DNA of 36,301 nucleotides from Syntrophothermus sp. DTU052 (GTDB lineage Bacteria > Bacillota > Syntrophomonadia > Syntrophomonadales > DTU052). Every line of letters starts with the position of its first letter. The first letter of the stretch is position 1. The translations under genes and the position numbers were made by a program. The notes under the pieces are model-generated. The model had not been told where the DNA came from, did not search any database, and was given only the letters and a program-made list of their open reading frames with translations. Of this stretch, positions 3,853 through 17,567 are shown piece after piece. The stretch spans positions 12,439 through 48,739 of the forward strand of contig LFRU01000052.1 in assembly GCA_001512495.1 (NCBI GenBank). Reading direction: 5' to 3'.

Positions 3853-4320
3853 ATGATAATGGTAAGCGCTTGTCTTGCGGGAATCAACTGTAAGTACAAT
3901 GGCGAAAACAATTACTGTCCTTCGCTTTGTGCCCGTTTGGCATCACATCCGCATTTTCTGGTATGTCCTGAAACCTTGGGCTGTCTACCGATACCCCGGA
4001 TGCCGGCGGAGATATATGGTGGAGACGGGGATGATGTTCTGGACGGTAGAGCCAGAGTGATAACCTCTCAGGGTGACGATGTTACCAATGCTTTTATTCA
4101 GGGGGCCCGTGCCTGTTGGGAGCTTGCCCGTCTGAACCGGGTCAGCCTGGCCATTCTCAAGTCTAACAGTCCCTCCTGCGGGTGCGGTAGGATTTACGAT
4201 GGCTCTTTTTCCCGCCGTCTGCGGCCCGGTGACGGTGTAGCGGCTGCTTTATTGCGGCGCAACGGTGTAAAAATTATATCGGAAAAAGATTTCCAGCAAA
4301 TTGGTTACAATAGTAAGTGA
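3853..4320 (+). CDS. DUF523-family protein (TudS-like)
   Basis: MIMVSACLAGINCKYNGENNYC...VCPETLGCLPIPRMPAEI...GDDVT...AILKSNSPSCGCGRIYDGSF matches the DUF523 signature with conserved cysteines. Confidence 0.88.
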   Translation: MIMVSACLAGINCKYNGENNYCPSLCARLASHPHFLVCPETLGCLPIPRMPAEIYGGDGDDVLDGRARVITSQGDDVTNAFIQGARACWELARLNRVSLAILKSNSPSCGCGRIYDGSFSRRLRPGDGVAAALLRRNGVKIISEKDFQQIGYNSK

Positions 4321-4403
4321 TGCGTTGAAATACAGTCAGGCGGCTGGATGCTGTTGTCTTGCAGGTATGCTTTATCATCCAGTTAGGAATTAGGAGGATT
4401 CTT

Positions 4404-5384
4404 GTGAAAGCCATCAGCCTTTTTTCAGGAGGTCTGGACTCACAACTGGCAGTTTGCCTTGTGAAACAGCAGGGAATTGATGTTGTGGGAGTCAATCTTA
4501 TCTCTCCCTTTTTTGGCGGAGACCGTAAACTGGCAGTTGCCGCCGATGAACTGGGGATTGAGCTCAAGACCATGGATATCTCCGAAGAGTACATGTATGT
4601 GCTTAAGAATCCACGATACGGCTACGGAAAGCATATGAACCCCTGCATCGACTGTCACGGCTTCATGATCAGAAAAGCCGGAGAGTATATGCGGGAGTGC
4701 GGAGGCAGTTTCATTATTACCGGGGAGGTTTTAGGCCAGCGGCCGATGAGCCAGAATAAATCTGCATTGGCAGCGGTGGATAAAATTTCGGGTTTCCGAG
4801 GCCTGATTCTCCGTCCTCTTTCCGCCAAGCTCCTCCCGCCGACCATCCCGGAACAAAACGGATGGGTAGACCGGGAAAAGCTCCTTGACATAAGCGGGCG
4901 GTCCCGGACAAGGCAAATGCAGCTGGCGAAGGATTGGGGAATCAGTGAATACCCTTCACCGGCGGGCGGGTGTCTGCTGACCCAGGAGACCTTCTCCAAA
5001 AGGCTGCGGCACCTCTTCCAGTTAAAACCCGAGGCCGGACCTATTGACGCCGAAATCCTTAAGCATGGGCGCCATTTTTTGCTTGATTCGCGTGGTATTC
5101 TGGTGATAGGGCGGAACGCCACTGAAAATGATGTCTTACTTAAAATGGCGGCTCCGGCTGACCACCTCCTCAAGGTGGCTACGCATCCGGGTCCCACCTC
5201 GCTGCTCCGGTACTTTGGAAGGCCCGAGCCTGGTGATATAGAATGGGCGGCCTCCATAACGGCGCGTTACAGTGATGCCGTTTCCCTGCCCCGGGCTCAG
5301 GTTAAGGTATGGCAGCCCCGGCATGAACCGCAGTTAATTACAATACAACCGATGCCCCGTGAACATACTCCACCTACTGTTTGA
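4404..5384 (+). CDS. PP-loop ATPase, tRNA-thiouridylase-like, with apparent C-terminal NFACT-R-like (DUF814) domain
   Basis: GTG start at 4404 with RBS TAGGAGGA. N-terminal SGGLDS PP-loop, NPCIDCH cysteine pair, PAGGCLLT third cysteine. C-terminal ILVIGRNATENDVLLKMAAPADHLLKVATHPGPTSLLR resembles the NFACT-R 'GRNxxQND...PxDxWLHxxxxPGSHVVLR' pattern. Confidence 0.75.
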   Translation: MKAISLFSGGLDSQLAVCLVKQQGIDVVGVNLISPFFGGDRKLAVAADELGIELKTMDISEEYMYVLKNPRYGYGKHMNPCIDCHGFMIRKAGEYMRECGGSFIITGEVLGQRPMSQNKSALAAVDKISGFRGLILRPLSAKLLPPTIPEQNGWVDREKLLDISGRSRTRQMQLAKDWGISEYPSPAGGCLLTQETFSKRLRHLFQLKPEAGPIDAEILKHGRHFLLDSRGILVIGRNATENDVLLKMAAPADHLLKVATHPGPTSLLRYFGRPEPGDIEWAASITARYSDAVSLPRAQVKVWQPRHEPQLITIQPMPREHTPPTV

Positions 5385-5415: not shown

Positions 5416-6333
5416 CTAGGCCAGGTTCAGGTTGGAGGGGCGGACGCCATCGTAAAGATAGTATCGATCGCTGTCCGCAAACACTTTGCCCAGATCAATC
5501 AGCCGCAATACATGCTGCTTGATCATGAACCACTCATAGTATCGCCATTGCGGCTCATGGAACTTGCGGTAAATAATGTTTTCATCAACGATTTCCCAAA
5601 GGGTGTGTTTGCCCCGGTAGATGGCATTTATGACCTCTTGCTCGCGGCGGTAGATTTCATCTCGGTACCTGGTCAACCGTCCCTGAATATTTGATGTGAT
5701 CGGACCGGAAGCATGGCTGGTAATCAGCATTTCCGGTTTCAGGTTAATCACCCGGTCGATGGAATCGATGAAATCACTTACGTTGCACACGGCGTTCCCA
5801 TACCACGGTCCGAAACGGTCCAAATCAATATCCGTTGAAAACACAAGTCCCAGGTCAGGAAACAGGAAACCGCAATGTCCCAAGGTATGGCCGGGGAGGT
5901 GGAGCACTTCAAACCTGGTATGGCCGAGGTCTATTATCCTGCCGTCGCTCATGGTTTCATGAGGTTCACGAAACTCATAGCCCCACTGGTCCAGCGTCAG
6001 GTAGCGAGAAAGGTCCACCCCAACGTACTGGCTCCCCACGGTGCTTATAAACCGCTCCCGGGAACTCAGATACGGAAAGTCGGCTTCATGGGCCATAATT
6101 TTCGCCTGTGGAAAGTGGCTGTTGTACCGATTGTGGTCAACATGGTAATGGGTGCTGATAATAAGGTCGATATGTTTGCTGCGTAGGTAATGGAGAGCAT
6201 CTTCGGTTACGGACGTATCGATGATACAGCAGGCATCATCCTCGATCAGAATGGTATTACAATACGGAAAATGATACTCGGGAGCTTCCAGCAGTGATAC
6301 ACGGCGGGATAGCTTCTTTAATTCTGATTTCAT
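5416..6333 (-). CDS. Metallo-beta-lactamase-fold hydrolase (paralogue 1)
   Basis: STHYHVDH metal motif, LPGHTLGHCG, STDIDLDRFGPWYG, SHASGP; start MKSELKK preceded by GGGAGGAG. Confidence 0.88.
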   Translation of the reverse strand: MKSELKKLSRRVSLLEAPEYHFPYCNTILIEDDACCIIDTSVTEDALHYLRSKHIDLIISTHYHVDHNRYNSHFPQAKIMAHEADFPYLSSRERFISTVGSQYVGVDLSRYLTLDQWGYEFREPHETMSDGRIIDLGHTRFEVLHLPGHTLGHCGFLFPDLGLVFSTDIDLDRFGPWYGNAVCNVSDFIDSIDRVINLKPEMLITSHASGPITSNIQGRLTRYRDEIYRREQEVINAIYRGKHTLWEIVDENIIYRKFHEPQWRYYEWFMIKQHVLRLIDLGKVFADSDRYYLYDGVRPSNLNLA

Positions 6334-6574
6334 TTCTCCTCCCTCACTCAACTCCTGTAGGTGTGTTTTAATAGCAGATGAATTCAACTGCTAACCGATT
6401 TTATTATCGGTGAGCAGAAGCACAGAAGCCTTCGATAATTCTATCCCTGCAACCAGTGAAGGCCTGTACGCATCTTATTCTGATAATAACACATATTTCC
6501 CTGCTGCACCTGTTTATGGGGGAAATAATAGTATGGACGGTGTTTCCAATTGTAAAGTAGACTGATGGCTTTTT

Positions 6575-7208: not shown

Positions 7209-8105
7209 TCAACTTCTCAGCATATAGCGTTCTTCGTCAACTATGACGACACACTCTTTTCTGACCAACCGCTCCAGGTGTTTCTCAATCATATTCCGCT
7301 CCCAGAAACCATTATAGACATAATCGTAATTCTTATAGAATATATTGCGGCCGACCAGATCATCCAGGGTTACCGGTTCTTTAAGGTGCTTTTTTATACG
7401 TTCCTCTGCCTCTGCTATCTTATCCAGATAGGATAGCAGCTTTTCCTCAATGTTTTCTCGGATGGGCTTACGATGCGAGCAGCAGTAGATCCTGGGTTTT
7501 AGGTCAATAATCCTGCGGATGGAAGCCTCGAAATCCTCCAGATTGGAAAGGTGGTCACCGTACCAGGGTCCGAAAGGAATCAGGTCAATATCGCTACCGA
7601 ATACAATGCCCTCCCGCTCAAAGTAGAACGCAAGATGACCCGGGGTATGCCCGGGGGTATGGAGAACGGTAGCCCTGGTATGCCCGAAATCAATTACCTC
7701 CCCATCCTTGAGGAACCCGTCCACCTTGAACTTCCGGGGTGGTATGCTCCTGCTTTTCCTGGCCTTGGCCAGGTATTCCTTTTCCCCTTCCCTGGTTTTG
7801 TCAAGTCGAGATATTCCCGCATAATAGCGCCGAGCCTCTTCGTCCACCAGGGGCGGGTATTCCAGAGGATGAACCAGTACCCGAGCTTGAGGAAAGAGAT
7901 GATTGCCATTGGTATGGTCCCGGTGATAATGGGTATTGATAACAATATCTATCCGGGTTGGTTCTATAGGGGCGAAGGCCCTTTCCCCCGCTCCCGTATC
8001 AATAACGGCCCGTATATCGGAATCGATCAAGAGGCAATGACAATAAGGGAAACCGGCATTTTGCGCTCTTATGAATTTTATACCGGGAGCAACTTCGATG
8101 ATCAT
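7209..8105 (-). CDS. Metallo-beta-lactamase-fold hydrolase (paralogue 2)
   Basis: NTHYHRDH, TPGHTPGHLAF, GSDIDLIPFGPWYG, SHRKPI; clear similarity to the 5416-6333 product. Start codon overlaps the UPF0182 stop (TAATG). Confidence 0.9.
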   Translation of the reverse strand: MIIEVAPGIKFIRAQNAGFPYCHCLLIDSDIRAVIDTGAGERAFAPIEPTRIDIVINTHYHRDHTNGNHLFPQARVLVHPLEYPPLVDEEARRYYAGISRLDKTREGEKEYLAKARKSRSIPPRKFKVDGFLKDGEVIDFGHTRATVLHTPGHTPGHLAFYFEREGIVFGSDIDLIPFGPWYGDHLSNLEDFEASIRRIIDLKPRIYCCSHRKPIRENIEEKLLSYLDKIAEAEERIKKHLKEPVTLDDLVGRNIFYKNYDYVYNGFWERNMIEKHLERLVRKECVVIVDEERYMLRS

Positions 8106-16853: not shown

Positions 16854-17567
16854 ATGAGTTCAAAAACACTTTTCCGCCAAATCAAAGCGGCTAACCTGAA
16901 GTACCGGATGGTACAAACAGGTGATCGGATTGCAGTAGGACTTTCCGGAGGCAAAGACAGTCTGGTTCTGCTGCACGCTCTACGATTATTAAAGGATTAT
17001 ACCCCCTTGGAGTTTGAATTGTTCCCTGTAACCATTGATCTGGGATGGGGCGATGACTGGAGTCTTATCTCCGAGCACTGCGCGGCCCTGGGTTTGCCGC
17101 ACTCCATCGTAAAGACGCAGATTGGCCCCCTGGTTTTTGAAGAGCGTAAGGAATCCAACCCCTGTGCTCTTTGTTCCAACCTGAGATCCGGCTCCCTCAA
17201 CCGTACTGCTGTTCAATTAGGCTGTAACAAGGTAGCTCTGGGACATCACCTGGATGACGCCTTGGTTACACTGATAATGTCGATGATGTTTGAAGGAAGA
17301 TACCGTACTTTCCGACCGGTAACGCATCTGAGCCGCATGAATCTTTTTCTCATTCGACCTCTGATCTATGTTGAAGAAAAACTGGTGGCGAAAACAGCCA
17401 AAACCCTGTATCTTCCGGTTAAGAGCAGCCGGTGTCCGGTTACCGGTGCCACCAACCGCGAAAAGGTTAAAAGTTTCCTGGACGCGCTGGAGTCCCATTA
17501 TCCATCCAGTAAGCGGCGGATGTTAAAGGCCATGGAAAACGCCGATGCCAATAGTTTCTGGGACTAA
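16854..17567 (+). CDS. TtcA/TilS-family PP-loop ATPase (tRNA 2-thiocytidine biosynthesis-like)
   Basis: AVGLSGGKDSLVLLHAL PP-loop, PCALCS cysteine pair, ALGHHLDDALVTL, third Cys in SSRCPVTG. Confidence 0.87.
   Translation: MSSKTLFRQIKAANLKYRMVQTGDRIAVGLSGGKDSLVLLHALRLLKDYTPLEFELFPVTIDLGWGDDWSLISEHCAALGLPHSIVKTQIGPLVFEERKESNPCALCSNLRSGSLNRTAVQLGCNKVALGHHLDDALVTLIMSMMFEGRYRTFRPVTHLSRMNLFLIRPLIYVEEKLVAKTAKTLYLPVKSSRCPVTGATNREKVKSFLDALESHYPSSKRRMLKAMENADANSFWD

Follow-up and report, generated by a model that had tools for sequence, protein, structure and literature searches.

The 36 301-nt stretch of Syntrophothermus sp. DTU052 DNA that we analyzed (hereafter the window) carries two co-directional genes, the first encoding a DUF523 protein and the second a PP-loop ATPase fused to an NFACT-R-like domain, raising the question of whether a sulfur-removing and a sulfur-installing enzyme work together at this locus. 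A first-pass annotation of the window had proposed that the pair forms a tRNA thiolation, proofreading or salvage module. The order and direction of the two genes were confirmed (Table 1), as was their divergence from the upstream genes for a response regulator (RR), a histidine kinase (HK) and an HtrA-like protease, all three of which are on the minus strand. Metallo-beta-lactamase-like and esterase-like genes, named like the upstream genes from reading the sequences, follow downstream on the minus strand. A TAGGAGG sequence precedes the GTG start of the second gene, and the terminator scan found no terminator-like site in the spacer. Scans for promoters and terminators in the region of the pair were not decisive, and Rfam, run on the whole window, detected no RNA element at the pair, its sole match in the window being a tRNA. 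The two genes are presented here as a putatively co-transcribed pair. As a side observation, metallo-beta-lactamase-like paralogues are located at 5416-6387 (-) and 7209-8105 (-), one on each side of the esterase-like gene; a gene for a UPF0182-like membrane protein comes after them.

Table 1. Positions within the window of the two genes, their spacer and the motifs and domain of the second protein
Feature	Position	Strand	Description
Stand-alone TudS gene	3853..4320	+	ATG start at 3853, stop ends at 4320; 155 aa
Spacer between TudS and fusion genes	4321..4403	+	83 bp; ribosome-binding site AGGAGG ahead of GTG
PP-loop–NFACT-R_2 fusion gene	4404..5384	+	GTG start at 4404, stop ends at 5384; 326 aa
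PP-loop motif SGGLDS	4425..4442	+	Residues 8-13; alignment
NPCIDC motif	4638..4655	+	Residues 79-84; Cys81 and Cys84 predicted as the first and second cluster ligands
GGC motif	4965..4973	+	Residues 188-190; Cys190 predicted as the third cluster ligand; context AGGC
NFACT-R_2 domain	5067..5366	+	Residues 222-321; PF18297, 1.3e-17

Pfam profile searches were run for both proteins. The first was matched over almost its full length by PF04463 (2-thiouracil desulfurase, 6.9e-42), in agreement with its initial assignment to DUF523/TudS, and aligned to the solved TudS structure 6z92 at 2.8e-22; NCBIfam assigned no name to it. Its predicted [4Fe-4S] ligands Cys7, Cys38 and Cys109 correspond to Cys10, Cys43 and Cys104 of the known TudS, and its catalytic residues Glu40, Ser106 and Ser108 to Glu45, Ser101 and Ser103, the cluster cysteines, the glutamate and the two serines being those named for TudS in the literature (PMC10611767). 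All of them were invariant across 15 operon-linked TudS homologues, and this DUF523 lineage therefore retains these TudS active-site residues. DUF1722 (PF08349) was absent from the 155-aa protein in the Pfam search, which makes it a TudS rather than a RudS. A published stand-alone TudS prefers 4-thio-UMP, did not act on tRNA in vitro and left the 4-thiouridine (s4U) of Pseudomonas putida tRNA unchanged (PMC10611767), and the predicted role of the protein here is most likely that of a salvage enzyme for 4-thio-UMP.

In the second protein, the N-terminal PP-loop was matched by the ThiI model PF02568 (5e-7) and the MnmA-type model PF03054 (3e-6) and the C-terminal region by NFACT-R_2, which was found in 26 of 26 members of the fusion family. 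The NFACT-R-like label given to it earlier was correct, with NFACT-R_2 as the closer model and DUF814/NFACT-R_1 (PF05670) reaching only E=0.24. Pfam recognized only the PP-loop and NFACT-R_2, with no NFACT-N or coiled-coil domain, and no THUMP or NFLD-THUMP was found with the Pfam and NCBIfam models. The score against ThiI TIGR00342 was 32.1 bits, confined to the PP-loop and under the curated cut-off of 264.5 bits, and those against two MnmA models were 31.7 and 28.8 bits, under curated cut-offs of 284 and 236.95 bits, respectively. An AlphaFold2 model of the fusion (pLDDT 93.8, pTM 0.88) resembled MnmA, [4Fe-4S]-LarE and ThiI in fold matching, and also FbpS and RqcH in their NFACT-R regions.

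The SGGLDS motif, the PCIDC cysteine pair and the lone GGC cysteine that had been noticed at first sight were all present and conserved among relatives. Cys81 and Cys84 (NPCxDC) and Cys190 (GGC) were invariant in 116 of 116 fusion sequences and SGGxDS was near-invariant, where 80 of the loci had been found with patterns including these motifs; the unbiased part of the set is thus the 36 sequences from Bacillota that came from the NFACT-R_2 search. In NcsA/TtuA, a [4Fe-4S] cluster is held by a CxxC and a distant third cysteine, which leaves one of its irons open (PMC10067955). The Cys81/Cys84/Cys190 pattern matches that of the [4Fe-4S] tRNA thiolases, and the fusion is, judging from its sequence, probably [4Fe-4S]-dependent.

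We then surveyed the neighborhoods of the fusion gene. When 300 genomes from the phylum of the window (the Bacillota group) were searched with PF18297, RqcH-like proteins (~590 aa) could be told apart from short PP-loop fusions, and a family profile identified the fusion in 34 of the 300 genomes. One genome (G085) with a weaker NFACT-R_2 match and a family profile score of only 33 bits was left out of the carriers, and neighborhoods were read in 33 of the 34, one carrier (G244) holding only a fragment. TudS was directly upstream of the fusion on the same strand in 18 of the 33 Bacillota loci, which represented 9 families, and in 32 loci when those from a scan of GTDB genomes were added, a count in which a few genomes may stand in both sets and two pairs of tree rows are identical. 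The closest relatives carrying a name were Syntrophomonadaceae genomes assembled from metagenomes, and the host of the pair is probably a syntrophic member of the Bacillota. Among the 32 TudS-linked loci, the genes were within 100 bp of each other in 30, overlapped in 15 and shared a 4-bp stop/start overlap, a mark of translationally coupled genes, in 9. The adjacency is therefore not confined to one genome, and TudS was the neighbor in more loci than any other gene. In the family tree, TudS-linked rows fell mainly into one Bacillota group (27/29 rows), a second TudS-linked group was mixed with Bacillota, Actinomycetota and Aminicenantota members, and the linkage required 6 changes on the tree compared with 28 when labels were shuffled. 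MnmA or LarE, which are also sulfur-transfer PP-loop enzymes, were found nearby instead of TudS in Atribacterota and others. In three loci of one family (L033, L034 and L035; f46), two tandem fusion copies on separate long branches were ~0.1 kb apart with a LarE-like gene nearby; these copies possibly reflect subfunctionalization, for example for two target positions.

The distribution of the fusion was complementary to that of THUMP-type ThiI. In the 300 Bacillota-group genomes, THUMP-ThiI was found in 1 of 34 fusion carriers compared with 155 of 266 non-carriers (p=1.0e-10), and at the family level in 2 of 15 carrier and 68 of 106 non-carrier families (p=3.6e-4). The hand-compiled ThiI list held 156 genomes and the automatic tally over the cut-off 154, a gap that probably arises from two weaker matches (G120 and G259), neither in a carrier. 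In 168 Desulfobacterota genomes, the fusion was present in 157, and ThiI was found in 3 of these carriers compared with 6 of the 11 non-carriers (p=1.3e-6); since genomes share descent, such genome-level p-values are inflated, and more weight should go to the family-level test and to the second phylum. Among carriers from many phyla, ThiI was present in 2 of 43, one of which was a Methanothrix metagenome-assembled genome (MAG) with a possible binning error. Both enzymes were encoded in G106, G304 and a few Desulfobacterota. Many genomes had neither ThiI nor the fusion, so missing ThiI alone does not constitute a gap. Many anaerobes lacking ThiI carry the fusion, and the fusion may accordingly be the missing 4-thiouridine maker. 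We also found the fusion in archaeal MAGs (loci L088, L106, L134, L144 and L146; Nitrososphaeria and Bathyarchaeota); a review notes that some archaea are without Fe-S-type ThiI and that the s4U route there is unknown (PMC9957541).

MnmA was present as a separate gene in all 33 carriers tested, so that s2U34 is already covered, and the fusion as an MnmA replacement was rejected on this ground. The window additionally encodes a TtcA-like PP-loop protein of 237 aa (16854-17567, +), for which TtcA was the best match at 175 bits, where the curated cut-off is 272. Some Bacillota loci also had TtcA-like genes near the fusion.

TudS and RudS co-occurred with the fusion. In the 300 Bacillota-group genomes, TudS was encoded in 32 of 34 carriers, in 152 of 189 genomes with ThiI or the fusion and in 29 of 111 with neither; it was widespread also in genomes without the fusion, and its co-occurrence with the fusion among ThiI-negative genomes gave p=1e-12. 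RudS, a TudS-DUF1722 fusion, removes s4U from tRNA, and RudS-bearing groups without ThiI have been described, one of them consisting mostly of thermophilic sulfate reducers, for which the authors guessed at ThiI homologues of another architecture (PMC11417400). DUF1722 was found in 80 Desulfobacterota genomes, of which 74 had the PP-loop–NFACT-R_2 fusion only, 4 ThiI only, 1 both and 1 neither; the DUF1722 frames were nearly always long enough to include TudS, and for most of them the coordinates confirmed that the two domains are joined. The PP-loop–NFACT-R_2 protein is thus a concrete candidate for the homologue suspected by those authors, with 74 of the 80 genomes fitting.

Taken together, these results make the second protein most likely a substitute for THUMP-type ThiI, which the first-pass annotation had not suggested. 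We consider it fairly probable that the fusion is a THUMP-less, predicted [4Fe-4S] tRNA s4U8 synthase standing in ThiI's place and that its partner TudS salvages 4-thio-UMP. Under this proposal, NFACT-R_2, in place of NFLD-THUMP, would hold the tRNA, the PP-loop would adenylate U8, and a [4Fe-4S] cluster on Cys81, Cys84 and Cys190 would present (hydro)sulfide from its open iron, yielding 4-thiouridine at position 8. TudS, as a [4Fe-4S] desulfidase, would then act on the 4-thio-UMP that tRNA turnover sets free and turn it into UMP and sulfide; in this way, thiolated nucleotides would not build up and uracil would be recovered. Several observations count against this proposal: the TudS linkage is concentrated in a single large clade of Bacillota, with only a few others outside it, many genomes have neither ThiI nor the fusion, some have both, and TudS is widespread without the fusion. 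In a more far-reaching version, which we offer tentatively, anaerobes would run a self-contained s4U cycle: the THUMP-less [4Fe-4S] synthase would make s4U8, TudS would strip the sulfur from nucleotides or even from tRNA, and the sulfide would return to the open iron of the synthase; Desulfobacterota and several other anaerobic phyla would then make s4U mainly through this architecture, not through ThiI.

Other readings of the gene pair differ in the target position, the substrate of TudS or the existence of any functional link. The fusion could thiolate another tRNA position (s2U54, s2C32 or a new site) instead of U8, with TudS handling the matching thio-nucleotide, as its PP-loop scored about equally against the ThiI and MnmA models and the three-cysteine arrangement is common to TtcA, TtuA and NcsA (PMC10067955). 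We regard this as unlikely, given that the fusion anticorrelated specifically with THUMP-ThiI in two phyla, that MnmA was encoded separately and a TtcA-like gene is present in the window, and that RudS, the tested target of which is s4U in tRNA, co-occurred with the fusion in the absence of ThiI. Somewhat less probable still is a writer and eraser of one tRNA, where TudS would remove its neighbor's s4U from intact tRNA as part of a regulatory or proofreading pair: the tight, at times overlapping genes and the erasure of tRNA s4U by RudS (PMC11417400) are in line with it, but the TudS here has no DUF1722, and a stand-alone TudS prefers the nucleotide and left tRNA untouched both in vitro and in P. 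putida (PMC10611767). For the same reasons, the proofreading part of the module proposed earlier is without support, whereas the proposed tRNA sulfur module itself, the conserved adjacency and the intact TudS active-site residues are supported.

The pair might also reflect nothing but inherited synteny, with TudS and the fusion working in unrelated steps. Esterase-like and UPF0182-like genes recurred beside the pair in related genomes, and within the taxonomic order to which the window belongs these genes and the divergent RR-HK genes are syntenic as well. The place of TudS, however, was kept in the 9 Bacillota families as well as in loci of Actinomycetota and Aminicenantota, TudS topped all other neighbors in locus count, and the repeated 4-bp overlaps and the co-occurrence among ThiI-negative genomes likewise argue against this reading, which we consider very improbable.

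If the s4U8 synthase proposal holds, the tRNA modification route of most of a phylum and of many uncultured anaerobes gains its enzyme, NFACT-R has a role beyond ribosome rescue, and TudS has a physiological partner. Experimental work on the PP-loop–NFACT-R architecture was not found in the searchable literature, and neither the TudS operon nor the complementarity with ThiI appears to have been reported in searchable papers. Burroughs and Aravind (2014) reportedly predicted a new tRNA 4-thiouridylation pathway from NFACT-R, ThiI-like PP-ATPases and TusA-like proteins. Their system apparently shares its architecture and proposed product with the fusion, but its partners are TusA-like, whereas the conserved neighbor here is TudS; TusA, although encoded in 26 of 33 carrier genomes, was not among the recurrent neighbors. 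The ThiI complementarity is what the present analysis adds to that prediction.

Compared with other known systems, the first protein shares the three cluster cysteines, the catalytic glutamate, both serines and the stand-alone domain with the 4-thio-UMP desulfidase 6z92, but has Lys14 in the position of its phosphate-binding Arg17 and a candidate tRNA thiolase as a neighbor. RudS, the tRNA s4U eraser, has the TudS catalytic domain in common with it but carries the additional DUF1722, and the TudS here is predicted to act on nucleotides, not tRNA. The fusion shares the SGGxDS PP-loop and the inferred product with ThiI, of which TtuI is the archaeal [4Fe-4S] subclass, and the two have complementary distributions, but the fusion has a C-terminal NFACT-R_2 instead of NFLD-THUMP and scores far under the ThiI cut-off. 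MnmA, LarE and TtcA/TtuA/NcsA have the PP-loop fold in common with it, and several of them the three-cysteine [4Fe-4S] pattern, but differ in accessory domains and targets, MnmA being separately encoded in the same genomes. Finally, the NFACT proteins (RqcH/NEMF) share the NFACT-R domain with the fusion but have NFACT-N and the coiled coil besides, and the RqcH-like homologues are separate proteins.
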